Shown piece by piece: positions 51-13,036 of a DNA stretch of 64,000 nucleotides. Location: positions 1 to 64,000 of the forward strand of contig JAENWW010000002.1 of NCBI GenBank assembly GCA_016649875.1. The letters run 5' to 3'. How positions within the stretch are numbered: the stretch's first letter is position 1; the number at the start of each line of letters is the position of its first letter. Both the position numbers and the translations under genes were made by a program. This DNA comes from Coriobacteriia bacterium. GTDB taxonomy: Bacteria; Actinomycetota; Coriobacteriia; WRKU01; JAENWW01. The notes below the pieces were generated by a model. It was not told where the DNA came from and made no database searches. It saw only the letters and a program-made list of their open reading frames with translations.

Positions 51-203
51 ATTTGTCAAAGTTGCAAGTACTGCCTAAAGTCAACGGAAATAATGGCATT
101 TGAGGGCAGGATGCGACACAAATGGCGGGAAAAGGGCAGGAGGCAAGGTCTCTGCATAGCAGTGTTATCATTCATACATTGAAACGATTCTGTGGGAGGA
201 TGT

Positions 204-1163
204 ATGGAGCAAGCTGATAGTCCGATACTAAATATCGAAGAGCAGATTAAACACCTTAGAAGTAAGAATGTGAATTTCTATATTTGTTCCGAAAAAGATG
301 CGCTACAGTATCTTTCAAAAAATAATAATTACTTTAAGCTGCGTGCATATCGAACGGGATTCGAAAAATATCTCGAAGGTAAAAATAAAGGGAAATATAT
401 TGATTTAGATTTTGGGAAATTGCAGGATCTTGCCATTATCGATATGGAACTACGTTACTTGCTGTTACATATGACTCTTGATGTTGAGCATTTTGCGAAA
501 GTGCGGCTCTTAAAACTAATAAGTGACAAAGGGGAAGACGGGTACTCGATTGTCAAAGACTACATTAATAGTCTTGACGATACGAGCAAAAATATACTAA
601 TTGGCGGTTTGAAGCGACAAGAAGATAGCTGTTATTGCGGCGGCATCGCGACTAAATTTTCTGGCAACTATCCCGTATGGGCTTTTTTGGAGATAATATC
701 GTTTGGAACGTTAGTCCATTTCTATAGATTTTGCTGGAAAAGATTCGACAGCGACAGTTTAAAAAGTGAACATTTTTTATTACTTGGGGTGAAAAGTTTG
801 CGAAATGCCGCAGCGCATAATAGCTGCGTGATTAATGATTTGAGCCCAGGTAAGCCGCCCTTCAAAACCCATGATTTAGTTACGCGGGCATTGGCTAAAG
901 TTGGGCTAACGCCAGATTCGCGCATAAAGAAAATGAGTAATACAAAGATTCAACATATAGTGACATTATTGTTTGCTCATACATACTTTGTTGCAAGTGA
1001 CGGGGTACAGCAACATGTGAGCCGAAGTCTGCAATTGGTTACTACTAGGATGTTTAGAAATATAGATTATTATGAAAAAAATGAAACCATTAGCACCAGC
1101 TTTCTCTTTATAAAAACTGTCATTGACAAGTGGTTCCCAAATACGGATAATAAGAGCACATAA
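204..1163 (+). CDS. Abi family (Abi_2/AbiD-AbiF type) abortive-infection protein with HEPN motif
   Basis: A 319-residue protein of the Abi family, which in lactococci and other bacteria is linked to abortive phage resistance. The N-terminal signature is visible as YLSKNNNYFKLRAYR at about 36-50, and the family block PVWAFLEIISFGTLVHFY lies at about 157-174. An R-N-A-A-A-H motif at residues 200-205 fits the R-x4-6-H active site of HEPN ribonucleases. RNase activity is therefore an inference from family and motif. I chose the ATG at 204 because GGGAGGA lies just upstream; a GTG at 192 is also in frame. It is A+T rich compared with the rest of the window. No partner antitoxin is visible; downstream lie only decayed integrase and rhuM pieces, so it looks like the surviving gene of a mobile defence patch. 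Confidence 0.8.
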   Translation: MEQADSPILNIEEQIKHLRSKNVNFYICSEKDALQYLSKNNNYFKLRAYRTGFEKYLEGKNKGKYIDLDFGKLQDLAIIDMELRYLLLHMTLDVEHFAKVRLLKLISDKGEDGYSIVKDYINSLDDTSKNILIGGLKRQEDSCYCGGIATKFSGNYPVWAFLEIISFGTLVHFYRFCWKRFDSDSLKSEHFLLLGVKSLRNAAAHNSCVINDLSPGKPPFKTHDLVTRALAKVGLTPDSRIKKMSNTKIQHIVTLLFAHTYFVASDGVQQHVSRSLQLVTTRMFRNIDYYEKNETISTSFLFIKTVIDKWFPNTDNKST

Positions 1164-1236: not shown

Positions 1237-1598
1237 TTAACTGCCAGCTGCCGCTTCATACCCTTTATCGATAATTGCCACATCATCGTGCAAGTTGGTG
1301 AGCAGCGGACGCACGTACTTATTCAGAGTTGTTGTAACGTCGCAGTGGCCAAGCCATTTGCTGACACTAGCAACATTCATCCCAGAACGTACGGCGGCCG
1401 TAGCAAAGCTGTGTCGCAGTGACATGATTGTGATGCGTGGCACATCGTTCGTTGTTGTGAACGTGCGTACGAGTCGGCCACCTGTTTGTGGATTCAAGCG
1501 CTTGCCACGAGCGTCGGGTACCACGGGCCAAATCTTTACGATGTTGCCTTCATTTTGAAGCTCGCGTAGACGCTTGAATGCATAGGCGGGCCCTAGTT
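1237..1598 (-). pseudogene. C-terminal remnant of a tyrosine recombinase/integrase
   Basis: The frame encodes the catalytic C-terminus of a phage-type integrase: SLRHSFATAAVRSGMNVASV, then WLGHCDVTTTLNKY. These carry the Arg-x-x-His box, the LGH box and the nucleophilic Tyr in normal order and spacing. The N-terminal and core-binding domains and the first catalytic Arg are missing. The frame is open back to a stop at about 1599-1601 with no start codon at the break. It ends exactly where the rhuM remnant begins on the other strand, so a deletion or rearrangement joined the two. It could not act as a recombinase alone. Confidence 0.8.
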
Positions 1599-1608
1599 AT
1601 AGTCCGGA

Positions 1609-2023
1609 ATGATTTTGGTGTTTTCGGAGGTGTCAGAGCGGGCCCATTGTGCCCCTGTGTGTATTGTGTTTGGCTGTGCCGCCGACAATATATCGCTGCA
1701 TCTTAAAAACATTTATGCAGAACACGAATTGGATGAAACCGCAACTACCGAGGAATTCTCGGTAGTTCAAAAAGAGGGTGAACGAGAGGTCGCAAGAACC
1801 GTTCATTGCTATTCGTTAGAAGCGATCATTGCGGTCGGCTATCGCGTCAATTCCGAACGTGGCACACAGTTCCGCCAATGGGCAACGAACATTCTGCATC
1901 AGTATATTCAAAAAGGATTTGCAATCGACGATGACCGATTCAAATATGGCTCGCGGTTCAGTACGCGCTATTTTGATGACTTGCTCGAAGAGATTCGGGA
2001 TATCCGCGCCAGTGAAAGTATAG
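1609..2023 (+). pseudogene. RhuM-family protein, truncated at both ends (copy 1)
   Basis: Family-like sequence starts at about 1665 with FGCAADNISLHLKNIYAE and runs through VGYRVNSERGTQFRQWAT, KGFAIDDDRFK and LLEEIRDIRASE, a pattern typical of the virulence-RhuM family found on mobile elements. The usual N-terminal block with the W-L-T-Q motif is missing; in its place is unrelated sequence next to the integrase remnant. After the IRASE segment the frame runs into the start region of the second rhuM copy and is no longer RhuM-like. The molecular function of RhuM is not established. I treat this as a pseudogene. Confidence 0.7.
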
Positions 2024-2024
2024 T

Positions 2025-2566
2025 ATGGCGAAGAAGAAAAAGAACGAAATCACAGTTCGTTCCAGCGCAGCTGAGTACCTGACATTCGTCGCGGCGACAG
2101 GCGCTAACGAGCAGAGTGTCGAAATGCGTTACGAGGACGAGAACATATAGTTGACGCAGAAAATGATGTCTGTGCTATACGATGTCAGTATTCAGAACGT
2201 CGGTCAGCATATCAAGAAAATTTTCGCCGACAGCGAGCTTGACCGGGGGGCAACTATAAAGAAATACTTTATAGTTCAAAACGAGGGCTCACGCGAGGTT
2301 GAGCACTACAACCTGCAAATGATAATCACAGTCGGCTTCAAAGTGAATAACGAACATGCCGTTCAATTCCGTAAGTGGGCTAATGCCATAGTCAAAGACT
2401 ACACCACTCAGGGGTGGGCTATGGACGCCGACCGTTTGAAAAATACCGCATCATACAAGACCGCCTGTTCGAGAGTGACTTCGACCACTTTGTCGCACTC
2501 GAACAGGGTGCAAAGCAAATTCAGCAGACATTGTCTGCGGAATCCGACGTGAGTGACAACGAATGA
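2025..2566 (+). pseudogene. RhuM-family protein with internal amber codon and frameshift (copy 2)
   Basis: An ATG at 2025 opens MAKKKKNEITVRSSAAEYLT, which resembles the normal N-terminus of RhuM proteins, and reaches a TAG at 2148-2150. The expected residue there is Trp of the W-L-T-Q motif, so this is TGG to TAG. The same frame continues after the stop with LTQKMMSVLYDV, then HYNLQMIITVGFKVNN, QFRKWANAIVKDYT and GWAMDADRLKN. After about 2450 the frame breaks; RLFESDFDHFVALEQ is readable in another frame to a TGA at 2564-2566. Both lesions mark it as dead unless an amber suppressor is used. It is a second member of the family rather than a duplication of copy 1, as their sequences differ clearly. 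Confidence 0.75.
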
Positions 2567-5097: not shown

Positions 5098-5190
5098 GGA
5101 GGGGTGGCAGAGTGGTTGAATGCGGCGGTCTCGAAAACCGTTCTACGGGCAACCCCCGTAGCGAGGGTTCGAATCCCTCCTCCTCCGCCA
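5098..5190 (+). tRNA. tRNA-Ser (anticodon CGA) with encoded CCA
   Basis: A complete class II tRNA. The acceptor stem GGAGGGG pairs with CTCCTCC (one G-U). The anticodon arm GCGGT-CTCGAAA-ACCGT shows CGA, followed by a long variable arm (TACGGG/CCCGTA) and the T arm GAGGG-TTCGAAT-CCCTC. The CCA at 5188-5190 is encoded. The 3' half is the attachment-type site of the island that follows. Confidence 0.95.
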
Positions 5191-5191
5191 G
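5133..5191 (+). repeat. Left attachment-type repeat (3' half of tRNA-Ser)
   Basis: 59 bp from the anticodon loop through CCA plus one base; it matches 7664-7722 with three mismatches. It lies within the intact tRNA-Ser gene. Confidence 0.85.
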
Positions 5192-5657
5192 CGATTTTTT
5201 ATACTGTCAGGCGCTTTCCGGGCCTGCAGTTTTCTTTTTATATGCCATCATATACTGTCATGTCATTCATGCATTTTTACGTCAAAATATGGTTCGATCT
5301 GTGTCACCTTTCCGTCCCCATGATACGCAAATGCTGTGCCAACACTTTTTGTGATATGCCGCTCTAGTTGCTTTTTGTAAGTCGGTTTGCTTGCTTTTTG
5401 TATGTTAGGAAACTTGCATATTGTAAATCGTTCCTACTTTCGCTGACTTATGAAGACATCCAGAATGACACTCACTCCCAATGGATATAAGGCACGCGTC
5501 ATCGTTAGGTCTGAGGCGATTAGGGTTTTCATGGGTGAGGGGGATCCCATTCGGTTTTGTGGGCTGGTAGGCAAGGTGGTTGTTGCCTCAAACAATGGTG
5601 TTGTGCGGATTGCGCAACATATAATTTCGAGACAACACACTAGGAAAATGGGGGCGC
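5192..5657. other. Non-coding left end of the island
   Basis: No gene is supported in this 466-bp stretch. It is A+T rich after the tRNA. At 5598-5624 a near-palindromic GTTGTGC...GCGCAAC element and nearby ACAACAC half sites resemble the arms of the operator at 5668-5724, so extra binding sites for the AbiEi-like regulator may lie here. Confidence 0.4.
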
Positions 5658-5686
5658 TTGACGGTTTTGTTGTCTGGATTTATACT
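5658..5686 (+). promoter_or_regulatory. Sigma-A type promoter of the AbiE-like pair, leaderless
   Basis: TTGACG (5658-5663), 17-bp spacer, TATACT (5681-5686). The first ATG is at 5694, only 7 nt after the -10 box, so transcription would begin at or next to the start codon, and no ribosome binding site is visible. This predicts a leaderless mRNA. Confidence 0.65.
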
Positions 5687-5724
5687 ATTGTGCATGATGA
5701 ACAACACGGCATATCCAGACAACA
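5668..5724. promoter_or_regulatory. Inverted-repeat operator over the AbiE-like promoter and start codon
   Basis: Perfect 12-bp arms TGTTGTCTGGAT (5668-5679) and ATCCAGACAACA (5713-5724) are centred near the -10 box and ATG, 33 bp apart. The left arm fills most of the -35/-10 spacer. AbiEi proteins are known to bind inverted repeats in their own promoter and repress it; that this pair does so is inferred. Confidence 0.6.
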
Positions 5725-6785
5725 CCCCAACACCGATCGAGGTGCAGAAACGGCTGCAGGAACAGCTACCCCACACGTGGCGAGTTTGCCTTCTTGGGCG
5801 GGTTGAGAATCAGCGAGGTCCCGACGCTGTGTTGGAGGTCCAAACCCCTGACAGCCGGCGCATAAGGATATTCGTCAAGATTATGCGTCGACTGGAGCCA
5901 GCCGTCGTGCCTCGTGTGGTTGAACAGATGCGGTCGTGGGTCGACTCGTCAGCGATGGAAAAACCAATGGGGGAATTTCTTGTGGCGGCACCCTACTTGA
6001 GCGAACGCACTCGTGAGAAGCTACGCGATAGCGACCTCAACTACCTGGACTTCACGGGCAACAGTTATGTGACTATCGAAAAACCTGTTGTTTGCATACG
6101 TACGCAGGGAGCTTCGAAGGACCCCGACAAGTCATCTCGACCGATGCGGTCTCTGCGTGGAATCAAGACGGCCAAGATTGTGCGCACTCTGGTGGATCTC
6201 CGCCTGCCCTTGGGAGTCCGACAGATTGCTGAATTTGCAAAGACGGACCCCGGGAATGTTTCCCGTGTGCTCAATCTTCTTGGACGCGAGGATTTGGTTC
6301 AGCGGAGTTCGCGGGGGGGCGTTCAGCAGGTCGATTGGAACGGGTTGCTCAGGGCATGGTCTCGCGATTACTCAATGATCGGTTCGAATAGGTATTACAT
6401 GTATCTCGACCCTCGCGGACTCGGAAATTTCCTTTCGCGGTTGCAGACACTCCCAACCGGTATGCGCTATGCGGTAACGGGCTCCCTCGCTGCGGCACGA
6501 CTGGCACCTGTGGCTCCTGCAAGGTTGGGGGTCGCTTTTGTCGACGATGCAGCAACTGCTGCCGACTCCCTGGGGCTGGTGCCAGCCGAAACGGGCGCGA
6601 ATGTAATGCTTTTGGTACCCAGAGGTGACTTCGTCTTCGATAGAGTGAGGATTGATGAAGGGGTGCGGTACGTCGCTCCCAGCCAAGCGGTTGTTGATCT
6701 GCTTACGGGCTCGGGTCGCAATCCATCAGAGGCTGAGGAGCTCTTGGACTGGATGAGAAGGAACGAGAATGTCTGGAGAACTTAG
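5694..6785 (+). CDS. AbiEi-like antitoxin/transcriptional regulator (type IV TA family)
   Basis: About 363 residues from the ATG at 5694 (a second ATG follows directly at 5697). The N-terminal about 115 residues are unassigned. A helix-turn-helix is visible in the middle, at about 150-200 (IKTAKIVRTLVDL, RQIAEFAKTDPGNVSRVLNL). It is followed by a segment with YAVTGSLAAARLAP and a C-terminal part ending in EELLDWMRRNE, as in AbiEi-like regulators placed upstream of AbiEii nucleotidyltransferases. The downstream gene overlaps by 17 nt, which fits a coupled antitoxin-toxin pair. The internal position of the helix-turn-helix differs from the classic N-terminal winged helix of lactococcal AbiEi, so the subfamily assignment is tentative. 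It probably represses its own promoter through the inverted repeat at 5668-5724. Confidence 0.65.
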   Translation: MMNNTAYPDNTPTPIEVQKRLQEQLPHTWRVCLLGRVENQRGPDAVLEVQTPDSRRIRIFVKIMRRLEPAVVPRVVEQMRSWVDSSAMEKPMGEFLVAAPYLSERTREKLRDSDLNYLDFTGNSYVTIEKPVVCIRTQGASKDPDKSSRPMRSLRGIKTAKIVRTLVDLRLPLGVRQIAEFAKTDPGNVSRVLNLLGREDLVQRSSRGGVQQVDWNGLLRAWSRDYSMIGSNRYYMYLDPRGLGNFLSRLQTLPTGMRYAVTGSLAAARLAPVAPARLGVAFVDDAATAADSLGLVPAETGANVMLLVPRGDFVFDRVRIDEGVRYVAPSQAVVDLLTGSGRNPSEAEELLDWMRRNENVWRT

Positions 6786-7641
6786 CCAAGAATATGTCGT
6801 TGCGCGTCAAGCGCTACTGGATGCCCTAGAGGCGTTTGGCCCTCAGCGGGTAGCCGTGGTGCTTGTCGGGGCGCAGGCAATCTACCTGCATACCGGGAAT
6901 GCCGGTCTTGCGGTTGCTGAATCCACCACGGATGCGGACGTCGCTTTTGATCCTTCGTGGCTCGTCGAAGACCCTGTATTGGCTGTGGCTATGAGAGAAG
7001 CTGGGTTCTTCCGTGAGGAGAACGGAAGCGGGATTCCTGTTGGCACCTGGTCATCCCTGCGGGTGATATCCGGCGTGTCAGCTGTAGTGAAAGTGGATCT
7101 TCTAGTTCCCGCGGTACTGGGAGGTGGCGGTAGACGCGCAGCAAGGATCGAGGGTCAGGAACTGGGCTCAGTGCTCAAAGTGTCTGGGATTGAAGGCTGT
7201 CTGGTTGACTGCGAGATCCACACCATCTCCTCGTTTGACCCAGCCGATAATCGTTCGTTCGAGATAAAGGTGGCGGGTTCGGCCTCACTGTTGGTCGCAA
7301 AGGTCATTAAGCTTAATGAGCGAGAAAATCAAGCAGCGACTGGTCGCGACAGACGAAAGTACAAAGATGCTCTCGATGTGCTGCGGCTACTTCGTGCGGT
7401 GAAGATTGAGGAGTTGGTCGATGGTCTCAGACGGCTCTTAGGCAACGAGTTGTCGAAGGACGTAACTGAAACGGCAATTGACGCGCTTCCGAGACTCTTC
7501 GGCGACCCTGATAGCCCTGCCAGTCTGATGGCTGGTGAGGCGGCTGCGCCGGCGGAACCAGCCGACGTGATTGCCAGTTCATGCGCAGCGTTGGTTGGAG
7601 AGTTGATCGAGACTCTCGGTGAGGCTGGTTTGACAGCGTGA
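6769..7641 (+). CDS. AbiEii/AbiGii-family nucleotidyltransferase (toxin)
   Basis: 290 residues with a minimal nucleotidyltransferase fold. The nucleotide-binding part is VLVGAQAIYLHTG at about 31-43 and the metal-binding D55-A-D57 is in TTDADVAF. A conserved helix, KVIKLNERENQ followed by YKDALDVLRLLR, lies at about 180-207. AbiEii toxins modify an intracellular target by NMP or NTP transfer, with tRNA shown for related toxins; the target here is unknown. The ATG at 6769 follows AAGGA and overlaps the upstream gene by 17 nt. It is the last gene in the island before the right repeat. Confidence 0.72.
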   Translation: MSGELSQEYVVARQALLDALEAFGPQRVAVVLVGAQAIYLHTGNAGLAVAESTTDADVAFDPSWLVEDPVLAVAMREAGFFREENGSGIPVGTWSSLRVISGVSAVVKVDLLVPAVLGGGGRRAARIEGQELGSVLKVSGIEGCLVDCEIHTISSFDPADNRSFEIKVAGSASLLVAKVIKLNERENQAATGRDRRKYKDALDVLRLLRAVKIEELVDGLRRLLGNELSKDVTETAIDALPRLFGDPDSPASLMAGEAAAPAEPADVIASSCAALVGELIETLGEAGLTA

Positions 7642-7663
7642 ATCCGTACCGATAATCCTCTTT

Positions 7664-7722
7664 GAAAACCGTTCTACGGGCAACCCCCGTAGCGAGGGTT
7701 CAAACTCCTCCTCCTCCGCCAG
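7664..7722 (+). repeat. Right attachment-type repeat (partial tRNA-Ser copy)
   Basis: 59 bp, identical to 5133-5191 except for three substitutions in the T arm region. The changes keep a formable T stem (GAGGG/TCCTC with a G-T pair). Only the 3' half of a tRNA is present, so this is not a tRNA gene. Confidence 0.85.
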
Positions 7723-7803: not shown

Positions 7804-8742
7804 TTACTTCTCAGTCGACTTGTGAATCGGCGTGGGCTTCCGCGTCCACGTCTCCAGCGGGGTCATGTACCTCGAGGAGAAGTGCTCGACCAGCCGCTGC
7901 GCGGGCGCGGTGAGGGCGCGGTCCTTGGGAATCACGAGCCCGATCACGGTGTAGAGCGGTTCGCGGAGCGGGACGCAGGTGATCGACGACTCGTTCCCGC
8001 CGTGCGTCAGCCCGCGGGGGAGCGCGGTGATCCCGATGTTCCGCGCCACGGCGGCGATGAGGGGTTCGTGGCGCGTGTGAGTGAACGTGACGTTCGGGAA
8101 GAAGTCGTGCTTGCCGCATTCCTCGGCGAACGCGATGTAGACGCCCGAGTGCTCATTGAGCATCACAAAGCGCGCGTCCTTGAGCTCCTCGATTGAGACG
8201 CGCTGCTGGCGGGCGAGAGGATGCTGGTTCGAGCACACGATCACGATCTCGTCGCGGATGAGCGGGATGCAGTCGTACTCGTCGGGTGAGACCAGGTCAG
8301 TCCGCAGGATCGCGATGTCGAGGCGGTGCAACTCGAGCCTCTTGAGAATCTCCTCCTGGTTGCGCTCGCAGAGGTCAACCTGGACGCCGAGGTTATCGGC
8401 CTGAAAGTCCGCGAGGTCCGTGACGAGGTCATAGGCGCTCGTGAGCGGAAGTGCCCCCACACGTACTCTGAGCTGGGCGGAATCGCTGTACTGCGCCAGC
8501 CGCATGATGACGTTCTCGTAGTTCGTCGAGGTGCTGTTGGCAAACTGGAGGAACGTCTCCCCGGCCGGGGTCAGGGAGACGCCGGCCGAACCCCGGACGA
8601 ACAACTCGGTGCCGAGCTCCTCCTCCATCGCCTTGATCTGCTTGGAGAGGGCCGACTGCGACACGTAGGCGCTCTCGGCGGCATGGCAGAAACTCCTGAA
8701 GCGCGTGACCGCGAGGAAGTATTTGAGTTGCGCGAAGTTCAT
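7804..8742 (-). CDS. LysR-family transcriptional regulator
   Basis: 312 residues. The N-terminal winged helix starts MNFAQLKYFLAV, with ESAYVSQSALSKQIKAMEEE as the recognition helix region and LFVRGSAGVSLTPAGE as the wing. A LysR substrate-binding domain occupies about 90-300. I chose the ATG at 8742, which has GAGGG upstream and begins exactly at the family N-terminus; the longer open frame to 8832 is unlikely. It is divergent from the prFMN decarboxylase operon and is G+C rich like it. LysR proteins usually control the divergent operon in response to a pathway compound, so an aromatic acid effector is a reasonable inference. It also carries a polar C-terminal tail (RKPTPIHKSTEK). Confidence 0.9.
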   Translation of the reverse strand: MNFAQLKYFLAVTRFRSFCHAAESAYVSQSALSKQIKAMEEELGTELFVRGSAGVSLTPAGETFLQFANSTSTNYENVIMRLAQYSDSAQLRVRVGALPLTSAYDLVTDLADFQADNLGVQVDLCERNQEEILKRLELHRLDIAILRTDLVSPDEYDCIPLIRDEIVIVCSNQHPLARQQRVSIEELKDARFVMLNEHSGVYIAFAEECGKHDFFPNVTFTHTRHEPLIAAVARNIGITALPRGLTHGGNESSITCVPLREPLYTVIGLVIPKDRALTAPAQRLVEHFSSRYMTPLETWTRKPTPIHKSTEK

Positions 8743-9119
8743 AGGCGAATCCCTCTGTTGGGGGCCGGCGCCGTCCTGTGGGCGGGGGCCTTGCGCGCGG
8801 TCATCGACCGTGCACTGCACAAATGATACCAATTATTTTACACTCGCGCAGGGCCGACATCCGGCGGCTGCGGGCCTGCGCGTTTCCATCGAGGCAACCC
8901 GTCTTTCCCTCCTGCTCATGGCCGCGGTCTGCCAACAGGGGTCTTTCGCAATCGGCAACCCGGAACGCTCAGACCGAATTGCACAAGCGCGTGGGGGAGG
9001 CCACAGTCGAAGTGCGTTCGGATGCCTGCGTAACCCGGTGGCATCATCTCTGGCCGCGCGGGACGCAGTATCCGGGATCCCGCAAGCGATTAATTAGATG
9101 CACTGAGAAAGGAGTTCAG
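8743..9119. promoter_or_regulatory. Divergent control region between lysR and the decarboxylase operon
   Basis: 377 bp without a supported gene; frames are open on both strands only because the DNA is G+C rich. An A+T-rich patch at about 8818-8850 holds TATCAT read toward lysR and TACACT read toward the operon, with dyad ATGATACCAATTAT between, a plausible LysR (T-N11-A-like) site. AAAGGAG at 9109-9115 serves the first decarboxylase gene. Confidence 0.45.
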
Positions 9120-10562
9120 ATGGCAAAGACCTACAAGGATTTACGGGAGTTCTTGGCGACCCTCGAAGAGGAGGGCCAGTTGGTTCGTGTGAAGGAGGAG
9201 GTCGACCCCGAGCCGGATATCGGCGCTGCGGGTCGTGCCGCATCGCGCGTTCCGAACGGCCCCGCGGTCCTCTTCGAGAAGATCAAGGGCTACAAGGGCC
9301 AGGTCGTCACGAATGTCCACGGCTCGTGGCAGAACCATGCACTCATGATGGGCATGCCCAAGGATACCTCCACAAAGGCGCAGTTCGAGGAACTCAACCG
9401 TCGCTGGGACAAGTTCCCGGTCCCTCCCAACGTCGTCTCCCGTGATGAGGCGCCGTGCAAGCAGAACACTATGTCGGAGGATATCAACCTCTTCGAGATT
9501 CTGCCGCTCTACCGCATCAACGAACAGGACGGTGGCTTCTTCCTCTCGAAGGCGTCCGTCGTCTCCGGCGACCCGGAGTTCCCCGACGACTTCAACAAGC
9601 AGAACGTCGGCACCTATCGCATCCAGGTCAAGGACAAGGATCGTCTCGGCATCCAGGCGCTGGCTATGCACGACATCGCGGTCCAGCTTGAGAAGGCCGA
9701 GCGCAAGAACGAGCGTCTGCCGATCGCTATCTCCCTGGGCAACACGCCGCTCGTGACGTTCATGGCCTCGACCCCTGTGGGCTACAGCCAGAACGAGTAC
9801 GAGTTCGTTGGCGCGCTGCAGGACGGCGTCCCGACCGACATCGTCAAGGCCGACACCGCACCGCACCTGTTCGTCCCGGCCGGCGCCGAGGTCGTGCTTG
9901 AGGGCTACATCATCCCTCGCGCTCGCGTCGTCGAAGGTCCGTTCGGCGAGTTCCCGGGTTCCTACTCAGGCGCCCGTCTGCAGTGCGAGGTACAGATCAC
10001 CCACGTCACGTACCGCACCGACCCGATCTTCGAGAACCTCTACCTGGGCATGCCCTGGACCGAGATCGACTACCTGATGGCTCTCAACACCAGCGTGCCG
10101 CTCTACAAGCAGATCAAAGAGAGCTTTCCCGAGGTCGTCGCCGTGAACGCCATGTACAGCCACGGCATCGGCGTTATCATCTCCACCAAATGCCGCTATG
10201 GCGGCTACGCCAAAGGTGTCGCCATGCGCCTGCTCTCCACGCCACATGGCATGCCGTACTCCAAGATTGTGATCATCGTCGACGAGTTCGTCGACCCGTT
10301 CAATCTCGAGCAGGTCATGTGGGCGCTGACCACGCGCGTCCAGCCTTCGAAGGACGTCACGCTCATCGAAAACGCCGCCGGGATGCCGCTCGATCCGTCG
10401 AGCTACCCAGCCGGCATGACCACCAAGATGATCATCGACGCCACCACTCCTGTTCCTCCGGAGCCCAACCCCCGCACGGTCGAGCTGCTCAAGGACCCGG
10501 TGGACACCGAGAAGTACATGACCATCATCCGCGACCTGCAGAAGGCCATTGAAGACAAATAG
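9120..10562 (+). CDS. UbiD-family prFMN-dependent decarboxylase, hydroxyarylic acid type (BsdC/VdcC-like)
   Basis: 480 residues of the UbiD family, starting MAKTYKDLREFLATLEEEG after AAAGGAG. These enzymes use prenylated FMN to remove (or sometimes add) CO2 on aromatic or alpha,beta-unsaturated acids in the cytoplasm. The catalytic acid segment EGPFGEFPGSYSG is complete, with both glutamates of the E-x5-E pattern. The prFMN-binding Arg region is in TYRIQVKD. The next gene encodes the small D subunit found only with the BsdC/VdcC branch, so a phenolic acid such as 4-hydroxybenzoate, vanillate or protocatechuate is the likely substrate class; the exact one cannot be read from sequence. It is the first gene of the operon. 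Confidence 0.9.
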   Translation: MAKTYKDLREFLATLEEEGQLVRVKEEVDPEPDIGAAGRAASRVPNGPAVLFEKIKGYKGQVVTNVHGSWQNHALMMGMPKDTSTKAQFEELNRRWDKFPVPPNVVSRDEAPCKQNTMSEDINLFEILPLYRINEQDGGFFLSKASVVSGDPEFPDDFNKQNVGTYRIQVKDKDRLGIQALAMHDIAVQLEKAERKNERLPIAISLGNTPLVTFMASTPVGYSQNEYEFVGALQDGVPTDIVKADTAPHLFVPAGAEVVLEGYIIPRARVVEGPFGEFPGSYSGARLQCEVQITHVTYRTDPIFENLYLGMPWTEIDYLMALNTSVPLYKQIKESFPEVVAVNAMYSHGIGVIISTKCRYGGYAKGVAMRLLSTPHGMPYSKIVIIVDEFVDPFNLEQVMWALTTRVQPSKDVTLIENAAGMPLDPSSYPAGMTTKMIIDATTPVPPEPNPRTVELLKDPVDTEKYMTIIRDLQKAIEDK

Positions 10563-10629
10563 TCCGGCCCGGCTGCGCTGGAAGCATCCTGTGTAGCGAA
10601 ACGAACGATAAGACTTAAGGAGGTACTAC

Positions 10630-10836
10630 ATGAAGTGTCCGCGCTGTGACAGCGAGAAAACCCGGACGATGGTCAAGTCCCCGGTGGGGGATGTCTGGGA
10701 GGTCTTCGTGTGTGAGAACTGCTGGTACTCCTGGCGCTCGACAGAGACGCCCGTCGTGATTGAGAAGTTCAAGCTCACCGACGATATGATCGCGGGGCTC
10801 GGAGTCATTCCGCCGATTCCGCCGCTCGACATCTAG
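10630..10836 (+). CDS. Small subunit D of hydroxyarylic acid decarboxylase (BsdD/VdcD-like)
   Basis: 68 residues with two CxxC pairs, CPRCDSEKT and CENCWYSWR, forming a likely zinc ribbon, and a short C-terminal tail ending IPPIPPLDI. Small proteins of this kind accompany the BsdC/VdcC decarboxylases (bsdBCD, vdcBCD) and are needed for full activity of some. It follows ubiD by 67 bp with TTAAGGAGG upstream. The assignment rests on length, cysteine spacing and position. Confidence 0.85.
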   Translation: MKCPRCDSEKTRTMVKSPVGDVWEVFVCENCWYSWRSTETPVVIEKFKLTDDMIAGLGVIPPIPPLDI

Positions 10837-10966
10837 ACTTCGGAGCCGGTCCGGGGGAGCTGCACCGCAGTTTCCGCGGACCGTCCGTCCGGTGTGTTCA
10901 CCTCAAACCCGGTGCGTACGACACGGGGAGTGTCCGTGCATCGGCCAACAACAAGAAGGAGAAAAA

Positions 10967-12430
10967 GTGGAACAGATCAAGCATTTAATCACGAAGCGTG
11001 AGATCGGCTTCGTGCTCGGAATCCTTGTCGCCGCTGTCATCTGGCTTATTCCGATCCCCGCCGCGGCACTGAGCACGGGTGGGCACATCACTCTGGCCCT
11101 CACGCTCATGACCGTCGTCTGGTGGGCGTTCCAGATCACACAGCCCGGCTACACTTCAGGTGTGTTCTTGGCGCTGCTGGTCATCTTCAAGGTCATCCCG
11201 GGCATCGCGGCTACAGCGACGGCCAAGGCCGTCCCGTCCGCGGTCGCAACGGCGGCCGTCGTGTTCAAGTCATGGACCGGCACGACCATGTGGCTCGTCA
11301 TCGGCGCCTACCTGATCGCGACAGCGGTCAAGACGTCGGGGTTGGGCGAGCGCATCGCCTACAACTATATGCTGCGGTTCGTGAAGTCGTATCGGAGCAT
11401 CATCGTCGGTATCTTCATCCTGACCTTCGGGCTGAGCCTGCTCATCCCGCATCCCTGGCCGCGCGCTTTCCTGATCATGTCGGTCATGGCAGTCGTCATC
11501 TCCAGCTCGAAAATCCCGCGGGTGGATGCGATTAAGATCGGTCTGACCGTCTTCGCGGCGTCGGTGCCGGTCTCGCTGATCTTCCTGACGGGCGACTCCG
11601 TCATCAACCCGCTGGCCATCGCGGCTTCCGGCGTCGAGCTCAGTTGGGTCGGCTGGTTCATCCAGATGGGCATCCCCGCCATCGTCGCCAGCGTCATCAC
11701 CTGCCTGCTCATCCTCGTGCTCTTCAAGCCCTCGCAAGAGGTCACCATCAACAAGGATGAGATCCGCGACAAGATCGCGGGTCTGGGCAAGCTGAGCGGC
11801 ATTGAGATCCGCACCATCGTCTGGCTCACCATCGCCATCACCCTGTGGATGACGAACAGCGTGCACGGCATCGACATCGGTTGGGTCACCCTGATTATCG
11901 CGATGCTCATGAGCATGCCGATCATCGGCAACATCCTGAAGCCGAAGGACTGGGCCCAGGTCCCGATGCAGGTGCTCATCTTCCTGACCGCGGCCATCGC
12001 GATCGGCACCGTCGGTGGCGCCACTGGCATGAACGCGTGGATCGCCCACACGTTGCTGCCATCCACCGCCCCGACGAACTTGTTCCTGTTCGCGGCGGTC
12101 GTCACCATCATCGCCATCGTGATCCACATGCTGCTCGGCAGCGTCATCGCGGTCATGGGCGTCGCCGTACCGGCGATTCTCGTCTTCTCGCAGGCCATGG
12201 GCCTCAACCCGCTGGTTCCGACGCTGCTCGTCTACACGGCGATCGCGTCGCACTACTTGCTGCCGTTCCAGCACCTCAACATGCTCGTCGGCGCCGCCGA
12301 GGACACGGGCGGCTACACGCAGAAGGAGACGCTCCGTCTCGGACTGCCTCTCACGCTCGGCGTGTTCATCGTGACGATGGGCGTCGAGATCCCGTGGTGG
12401 ACGTTCACCGGTTTCCTCCACAAAGGCTGA
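10967..12430 (+). CDS. SLC13/DASS-type anion permease, probable aromatic or carboxylic acid transporter
   Basis: 487 residues, about 12 hydrophobic segments. It starts at GTG (10967) after AAGAAGGAG. Its two halves each carry a re-entrant-like loop, with LIPHPWPRAFLIMSVMAV in the first and MLLGSVIAVMGVAVPAIL in the second. SLC13/DASS proteins carry dicarboxylates, sulfate or related anions; in this operon the cargo is probably the acid substrate of the decarboxylases. The longer open frame to 10892 has no ribosome site. Decarboxylation coupled to acid uptake can also give pH homeostasis or a proton gradient, which is inference here. Confidence 0.75.
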   Translation: MEQIKHLITKREIGFVLGILVAAVIWLIPIPAAALSTGGHITLALTLMTVVWWAFQITQPGYTSGVFLALLVIFKVIPGIAATATAKAVPSAVATAAVVFKSWTGTTMWLVIGAYLIATAVKTSGLGERIAYNYMLRFVKSYRSIIVGIFILTFGLSLLIPHPWPRAFLIMSVMAVVISSSKIPRVDAIKIGLTVFAASVPVSLIFLTGDSVINPLAIAASGVELSWVGWFIQMGIPAIVASVITCLLILVLFKPSQEVTINKDEIRDKIAGLGKLSGIEIRTIVWLTIAITLWMTNSVHGIDIGWVTLIIAMLMSMPIIGNILKPKDWAQVPMQVLIFLTAAIAIGTVGGATGMNAWIAHTLLPSTAPTNLFLFAAVVTIIAIVIHMLLGSVIAVMGVAVPAILVFSQAMGLNPLVPTLLVYTAIASHYLLPFQHLNMLVGAAEDTGGYTQKETLRLGLPLTLGVFIVTMGVEIPWWTFTGFLHKG

Positions 12431-12469
12431 CATTCCGGGCATTGCACGACTAGATTGGGAGTGACGATC

Positions 12470-13036
12470 ATGCGGATTATCGTTGGAGTATCGGGTGCGA
12501 GCGGTGTGGTGATGGGCTACTACCTGCTGTCCGCCCTCAAGCAGCACGAGGATGTCGAGGTCCACCTCGTCGTGACCGCGGGAGCTCACAAGACGTGGGC
12601 GCTCGAATGCGACAAGTCGCTGGACGACCTCTACGCGCTCGCCGACGTGGTCCATGACGACGCGAACCTCGCCGCTTGCATCTCGAGCGGGTCGTTCAAG
12701 ACCGATGGCATGATCGTCATCCCGTGCTCCATGAAGACGCTCGCGGGCATCTCGGCCGGTTACGCTGCCAACCTGCTCGTGCGTGCGGTCGACGTGTGCC
12801 TGAAGGAAGAGCGCAGGGTCGTGCTGGTGCCTCGGGAGATGCCGTTCGGCAAGGTTCACCTTCGCAACATGGCGACGGCGGCCGACCTGGGTTGCGTCAT
12901 CGTCCCGCCCATGCTCACGTTCTACAACGGCCCCGTGACCCTCGAGGATCAGATAGACCATGTCGTGGGCAAGGTCCTGCGGTTCTTCGGCCTCGAGCAC
13001 GACAAGTTCGTGCCGTGGGAAGGTGCTGATATCTGA
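12470..13036 (+). CDS. ubiX: UbiX-family flavin prenyltransferase
   Basis: 188 residues. It transfers a dimethylallyl group from dimethylallyl phosphate to reduced FMN, making prFMN for UbiD enzymes. FMN-binding GVSGASG is at 6-12, the family segment PCSMKTLAGISAGYAANLL is in the middle, and REMPFGKVHLRNM contains the conserved Arg-Glu. I chose the ATG at 12470 after GGGAG rather than a GTG-type start at 12455. It overlaps the next gene by one base. One UbiX can serve both decarboxylases of the operon. Confidence 0.92.
   Translation: MRIIVGVSGASGVVMGYYLLSALKQHEDVEVHLVVTAGAHKTWALECDKSLDDLYALADVVHDDANLAACISSGSFKTDGMIVIPCSMKTLAGISAGYAANLLVRAVDVCLKEERRVVLVPREMPFGKVHLRNMATAADLGCVIVPPMLTFYNGPVTLEDQIDHVVGKVLRFFGLEHDKFVPWEGADI

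Follow-up and report, generated by a model that had tools for sequence, protein, structure and literature searches.

The first 64,000 nucleotides of contig 2 (JAENWW010000002.1) of a metagenome-assembled Coriobacteriia genome (G000; 1.41 Mb, 98% complete), here referred to as the window, carry a tRNA-Ser(CGA) gene followed by a small two-gene unit that closes with a second copy of the tRNA 3' half. The two genes, designated EI and EII, form a putative toxin-antitoxin (TA) operon. The features of the unit, with strand in brackets, are the following:

5098-5190 (+): tRNA-Ser, anticodon CGA, intact, the predicted integration site (ARAGORN; Rfam RF00005, 58.4 bits)
5133-5191 (+): inner copy of a 59-bp direct repeat, of the attL attachment-site type, reaching from the anticodon loop to the tRNA 3' end (repeat search)
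5192-5657 (no strand): leader of 466 bp without a convincing gene; 44% G+C versus 55% in the window
5658-5686 (+): sigma-70-like promoter TTGACG-N17-TATACT, ending 7 nt ahead of the ATG at 5694; the transcript is probably leaderless
5668-5679 (+): left operator arm TGTTGTCTGGAT, in which TGTTG[TC]C[TC] is kept in most of 17 aligned homologous operons
5713-5724 (+): right operator arm ATCCAGACAACA, 33 nt from the left arm and within the first EI codons
5694-6785 (+): EI, putative antitoxin and autorepressor, with an N-terminal PD-(D/E)XK/NucS-like region, a central winged helix and a C-terminal domain (open reading frame (ORF), profiles, fold search)
6769-7641 (+): EII, putative nucleotidyltransferase toxin, NTP_transf_8/AbiEii-like, with G34, D55/D57, K178/R185 and D200/D203 (ORF, motifs, profiles)
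7664-7722 (+): outer copy of the 59-bp repeat, attR type, with a drifted T-arm (repeat search, 56/59)

The tRNA-Ser(CGA) gene is the sole tRNA gene found by ARAGORN in the window. A first-pass annotation of this DNA had described 7664-7722 as a match to the tRNA 3' half, and this was confirmed: the segment agrees with 5133-5191 at 56 of 59 positions (95%), the copies lying 2531 bp apart start-to-start. The remaining repeats in the 7 kb searched were short, weak matches. All three differences of the outer copy fall in the T-arm (window 7702 G>A, 7705 T>C and 7706 C>T), as expected once a copy no longer serves a working tRNA. A search of related genomes for islands sharing the repeat, a check proposed with the annotation, was carried out on genomes that are drafts throughout and in which the window's genus is represented by one genome. 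Partial copies of tRNA-Ser(CGA) were found in two other Coriobacteriia (G027:C3:2345-2406 and G085:C78:443-503), starting 3 bp from the window boundary. Such near-identical starts indicate a re-used recombination or attachment boundary and not a chance match. In both genomes the copies (L194, 2345-2406; L196, 443-503) are the outer att copies of tRNA-Ser(CGA) islands with large, repeat-rich, adhesin-like genes inside. A different, 2.2-kb cassette was observed behind tRNA-Ser(CGA) in L090 (G065:C23:12000-23532; 8453-10715, minus strand), where the closing repeat consists of the tRNA 3' end and about 35 bp of downstream sequence; its cargo we take to be a DUF488-like gene and others.

Between the two copies, EI (to 6785) and EII (6769-7641) are the only substantial ORFs. 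The annotation had reported no integrase within the island, and indeed all four PF00589 matches of the genome are located elsewhere; transfer genes are likewise absent from the cassette. The unit, flanked by attL and attR copies of a gene 3' end and devoid of integration and transfer genes, fits a known kind of integrase-less island, the cis-mobilizable elements (CIMEs). CIMEs and their accretion with integrative and conjugative elements (ICEs) were first described around ICESt1 and ICESt3 of Streptococcus, with ICEs decaying to CIMEs and elements accreting in tandem (reviewed in PMC5704250).

The EI-EII operon and its predicted products

The EI and EII genes overlap by 17 nt in a bicistronic operon. 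A perfect 12-bp inverted repeat, TGTTGTCTGGAT-N33-ATCCAGACAACA, spans the promoter and the start codon, and 17 homologous operons largely preserve it. The TTG at 5658, where the ORF finder had placed the EI start, belongs to the -35 box, and translation of EI probably begins at ATG 5694 or 5697. Two promoter-type sites were found versus 1.6 expected by chance, and the one at 5658-5686 is backed by its placement relative to the conserved repeat. A bicistronic operon with inverted repeats across the promoter is the arrangement of AbiE systems, and the S. agalactiae abiE operator, TGTTGCTTTTA-N27-TAAAAGCAACA, is laid out in like manner (PMC3985639). Because the repeat straddles promoter and start codon, is conserved and has this abiE-like layout, EI is predicted to autoregulate the operon.

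In 12 EII homologues the residues G34, D55xD57, K178...R185 and K199-D200-x-x-D203 are invariant. They follow motifs I-IV of AbiEii (hG[G/S]...DhD, K(x6)R and +DxxD), which are needed for toxicity (PMC3985639), although the second position of the glycine motif at G34 is Ala and the G-to-D spacing is somewhat longer than in AbiEii. The motif II arginine of AbiEii (R63 versus D67, four residues before the first Asp) is absent, and an invariant Glu51 occupies this place in EII. The PF12281 (NTP_transf_8) profile matches all 12 homologues (best E 5e-8), the window protein itself remaining below the cut-off. With PF08843 (AbiEii), window EII scored 14.5 bits against a cut-off of 22.5, and only 2 of the 12 homologues were matched at E<0.1 (best 0.0019). 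A PDB sequence search returned no relatives of EII. Judged from its motifs, EII is probably a DNA-polymerase-beta-type nucleotidyltransferase and a putative toxin. By analogy with MenT3, which extends tRNA 3' ends and prefers tRNA-Ser in vitro (PMC10435456), its most likely action would be the addition of nucleotides to tRNA 3' ends. The position of the cassette next to a tRNA-Ser gene is, for the present, to be taken as a coincidence with the MenT3 preference.

EI has its winged helix or helix-turn-helix (HTH) in the centre of the protein (residues 180-232), and the region ahead of it shows a conserved G-P-D and E-x-K pattern. At residues 74-76 (numbered in ORF 5658-6785) the window copy reads K-x-M, versus E-x-K in nearly all homologues, so any nuclease-type activity should be lost in this copy. 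The N-terminal region gave weak matches to NucS/EndoMS-type folds (E 0.002-0.02), obtained from a weak predicted model and used here as a lead only; fold searches with the AlphaFold models yielded nothing else of significance, and a PDB sequence search with EI gave weak HTH matches only. No AbiEi family was matched, and the N-terminal winged helix and C-terminal domain of AbiEi were not found in EI. Neither protein reached the cut-off of a curated AbiE, PADLOC or NCBIfam model, and profile comparison with canonical Coriobacteriia AbiEii proteins and with the genes upstream of these was not significant. The annotation had seen in the island only non-coding DNA and an AbiEi/AbiEii-like pair. A sole two-gene operon is what lies there; the AbiE identity, in contrast, was not borne out, since curated models are not reached and the first protein is differently built. 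An AbiE-like toxin with a differently built partner is new.

The lack of model matches at cut-off, an EI without AbiEi domain and the non-significant comparison with canonical AbiEii and AbiEi of Coriobacteriia would also suit a regulator and a nucleotidyltransferase with a role outside toxin-antitoxin function, carried in a real att-flanked cassette. We consider such a role improbable, as the four AbiEii motifs are invariant, the overlapping operon has an autoregulatory-type repeat, the context is mobile and canonical AbiE pairs are found in the same kind of cassette (see below).

Homologous pairs and tRNA-Glu cassette arrays

EII was found in the window's genome and in 16 others among 150 Coriobacteriia relatives searched, and the genomes carrying the pair span many families. 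None of the 13 order-mates searched carries the pair; vertical inheritance in all relatives, which the annotation had named as the alternative to its island, is thus not the pattern observed. Pairs adjoin copies of the last 26 bp of tRNA-Glu(TTC) in L061-L063, L065, L066, L068, L071, L072 and L073. In five genomes the pair is the sole cargo between two tRNA-Glu copies, the cassettes measuring 2521 (L065), 2523 (L066), 2496 (L068), 2420 (L071) and 2521 bp (L073), compared with 2531 bp for the window unit. The tRNA-Glu gene itself forms the upstream bound of the cassette in L065 and L068. The tRNA library used for the fragment search at pair loci was small, and pairs scored as not at a tRNA may be at one; with this library, no tRNA fragment was detected at the flanks of the closest relative (L057/L058, 66-73% protein identity). 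Between families the pairs are 82-94% identical at the DNA level versus 71-80% for purH (for example, 94% versus 74% between G127 and G083). Since pair identity exceeds that of purH across families, the pairs in tRNA-Glu cassettes have moved horizontally. Two further loci are of note. In L074 (G137:C277; 1775-3010, minus strand) a complete tRNA-Ser(GGA) gene near the contig end is closely preceded by a homologous EII gene. In L059 (G065:C64) a duplicated segment of about 350 bp, in blocks about 4.9 kb apart, stands on both sides of the second-closest homologous pair and presumably codes for a MazEF-like pair.

The repeat behind tRNA-Glu is about 165 bp long and consists of two GATTTGGTGCCC-type units, three 10-bp ACTnnTTGGT-type units, the inverse of these and then the tRNA 3' end. 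One strand is predicted to fold into a long hairpin (z -4.4), and the repeated units may represent integrase arm-type sites. With up to five candidates scored per genome, at least 31 of the 150 genomes contain matches to the hairpin part, and in the arrays read these are always on the strand of the tRNA. In G023, eight sites are spread across 38 kb and headed by intact tRNA-Lys and tRNA-Glu genes (G023:C1:304184-342383, L131-L133). In G059 (G059:C11:263821-317743, L135-L137) and G035 (G035:C21:389870-463794, L139-L142) the tRNA-Glu gene is separated from the first hairpin site by 47 kb and 53 kb, respectively, and a tyrosine recombinase lies next to the tRNA in both. These recombinases are 89% identical; the domains of the array-head recombinase scanned are PF00589 and PF14659. 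The array head of G059, the genome covered by the conjugation-gene scan, also encodes a MobL-like relaxase, ParA, VirB4-like and VirD4 proteins; the matching genes of G035 were recognised as similar ORFs only. Judged from a recombinase beside tRNA-Glu together with conjugation genes, each of the two arrays is headed by a conjugative element, whose end is shared by the small cassettes that follow.

Canonical AbiEii genes are likewise housed in such cassettes (G025, 1994 bp from tRNA-Glu to one site; L061, 1966 bp; G023, 3406 bp), and a Shedu-type gene was found inside another. Viral contigs searched with profiles of EI and EII and with the hairpin sequence gave nothing. The literature searched, which left most subscription journals outside, contained no report of the tRNA-Glu arrays. 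Membership of the window cassette in the tRNA-Glu hairpin system was considered and rejected: 7641-7664 forms no hairpin, and the sole array-repeat match in the window's genome is weak (E 5e-6).

Origin and mobility of the tRNA-Ser(CGA) cassette

On balance, the window unit is probably an integrase-less, att-flanked cassette of the CIME type, in which the TA-like pair serves as maintenance module and possibly in abortive infection. A 2.5-kb unit would have entered the 3' half of tRNA-Ser(CGA) by tyrosine recombination, with a TA-like operon as its sole cargo. EII would block growth, probably by adding nucleotides to tRNA 3' ends, while EI would repress the operon through the inverted repeat and probably neutralise EII. 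Loss of the cassette would be prevented by the pair, which may also contribute to abortive infection; AbiE is known to stabilise plasmids (PMC3985639). Movement would need an integrase from a resident or incoming element using the same tRNA. For the tRNA-Glu cassettes, integrase-headed elements sharing the att site are present (G059 and G035).

Several observations weigh against this explanation. The window pair and its nearest relatives share only 69-70% DNA identity, about the divergence of purH (67-72%), and recent transfer is unsupported for the window copy. The cassette lacks the hairpin that ends tRNA-Glu cassettes, and its recombination system must hence differ from the tRNA-Glu one. 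This copy of EI has lost the E-x-K motif, and the AlphaFold models (made with two sequences) have mean predicted local distance difference test values of 51 and 43, too poor for fold confirmation. Finally, no tRNA-Ser integrase was recognised in the window's genome.

A divergence resembling that of a core gene, in a comparison covering one genome of the window's genus, could also reflect an ancient partial tRNA duplication, the genes between being inherited vertically and no mobile element being involved. To this we give very little credence: the pair is missing from all order-mates searched, the only family-mate has a different gene after tRNA-Ser(CGA), and the repeat, like those of G027 and G085, has the form of an att site that runs from the anticodon loop to the tRNA 3' end.

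As for a helper of the CIME-type cassette, the recombinases of the window's genome are XerC/D-like proteins, an integrase with tRNA-Met as its nearest tRNA, and a broken fragment. Given this set, movement in the present genome is unlikely, and the window copy is probably dormant. With no tRNA-Ser helper recognised and the outer repeat drifted, a stable remnant is at least as likely as a mobile copy. The annotation had proposed either a minimal island mobilised in trans or a stable remnant. The att-type origin stands, and the former option gains from homologous pairs alone in same-sized cassettes at another tRNA, in several families, that have moved horizontally. The integrase on contig 9 was considered as the partner of the cassette and rejected, its nearest tRNA being tRNA-Met. 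At this locus (L164, G000:C9:22000-41900; 9336-12529), the genes after tRNA-Met are one without annotation, one for an intact tyrosine integrase and one for an HTH protein, likely an integrative element.

The missing tRNA-Ser integrase and the drifted outer repeat would equally be expected of a larger integrative element or prophage in tRNA-Ser(CGA) that lost all but the TA pair and its ends and is now fixed, kept by the addiction effect of the pair. CIMEs are classically explained by the loss of genes for integration and transfer (PMC5704250), and an AbiD-like gene lies in the first 2.5 kb of the window together with broken copies of a tyrosine recombinase and of RhuM genes. However, the broken integrase lies beyond metA and metY, outside the cassette, and homologous pairs stand alone in cassettes of nearly equal length at another tRNA in different families. 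As this recurring length can hardly have arisen by independent deletions, we regard a deletion remnant as rather unlikely, if worth serious consideration.

Relation to known elements and surroundings of the cassette

At a single tRNA, the related tRNA-Glu cassettes form a tandem series behind a conjugative element, as described for CIMEs. In contrast to CIMEs, the cassette is only 2.5 kb long and carries a single TA-like operon, at a size that recurs in several families, and the window holds one cassette with no partner element recognised. The islands at ssrA in Dehalococcoides are also tandem behind one RNA gene and bounded by 3'-end repeats; many (15 found) have no integration module and were proposed to be CIMEs (PMC3146451). 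Tandem layout, 3'-end repeats and many integrase-less members are thus shared, whereas Dehalococcoides uses ssrA, a serine recombinase and rdhA cargo and the Coriobacteriia use tRNA-Glu or tRNA-Ser with AbiE-like or defence cargo; moreover, the integrase heading two tRNA-Glu arrays is a tyrosine recombinase, and each array site has a long hairpin.

With AbiE type IV systems (PMC3985639) the pair shares the overlapping operon, a winged-helix regulator followed by nucleotidyltransferase motifs I-IV, the long inverted repeat and the mobile setting. It differs in an EII below the AbiEii Pfam cut-off and without the motif II arginine, and in an EI with a central winged helix behind a nuclease-like region. 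Akin to MenAT of M. tuberculosis (PMC10435456), the putative toxin is of the nucleotidyltransferase type, catalytic positions are shared and antitoxins vary; EII, however, has no sequence match to any solved structure. The tRNA-Glu loci also resemble integron arrays in being same-strand small cassettes that each end in a site with a long imperfect hairpin. An integron was considered for these arrays and not adopted. The arrays differ from integrons in that their sites include the tRNA 3' end and the array-head integrase is of the phage/ICE type and lies beside conjugation genes. The window cassette, unlike integron cassettes, has no hairpin.

What is new is the minimal TA-only form at one size in several families, and the hairpin-marked tRNA-Glu arrays in Coriobacteriia. 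It is conceivable, and we propose it tentatively, that TA-only cassettes of about 2.5 kb and AbiE-only cassettes of about 2 kb form a group of minimal selfish elements in Coriobacteriia. Such elements would consist solely of recombination ends, a nucleotidyltransferase toxin directed at tRNA and the matching antitoxin, persist by addiction and move between tRNA genes and families on the integrases of conjugative elements, building integron-like hairpin arrays. If this is true, an integrated element needs merely two recombination ends and one TA-like operon, and solitary TA or abortive-infection operons behind tRNA genes would be explained. The tRNA-Glu arrays provide a system in which the build-up of cassettes behind a conjugative element can be tested, with a cargo shuffled across families that comprises TA pairs, the Shedu-type gene and others. 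A nucleotidyltransferase toxin possibly acting on tRNA and housed behind tRNA genes is a further testable link.

Rfam matches to Plastid-psbl-rps4, ar14 and CRISPR-DR21 were all below gathering threshold and were dismissed as chance. An intact AbiD-like (Abi_2) gene (192-1163, plus strand) stands at the start of the contig, 3.9 kb to the left of the tRNA. It is followed by an apparently broken tyrosine recombinase, of which a C-terminal fragment of 95 amino acids is left (1237-1524, minus strand), and by two broken RhuM-family genes (1609-2552, plus strand; PADLOC PDC-S05), which suggest a decayed island at the contig start.

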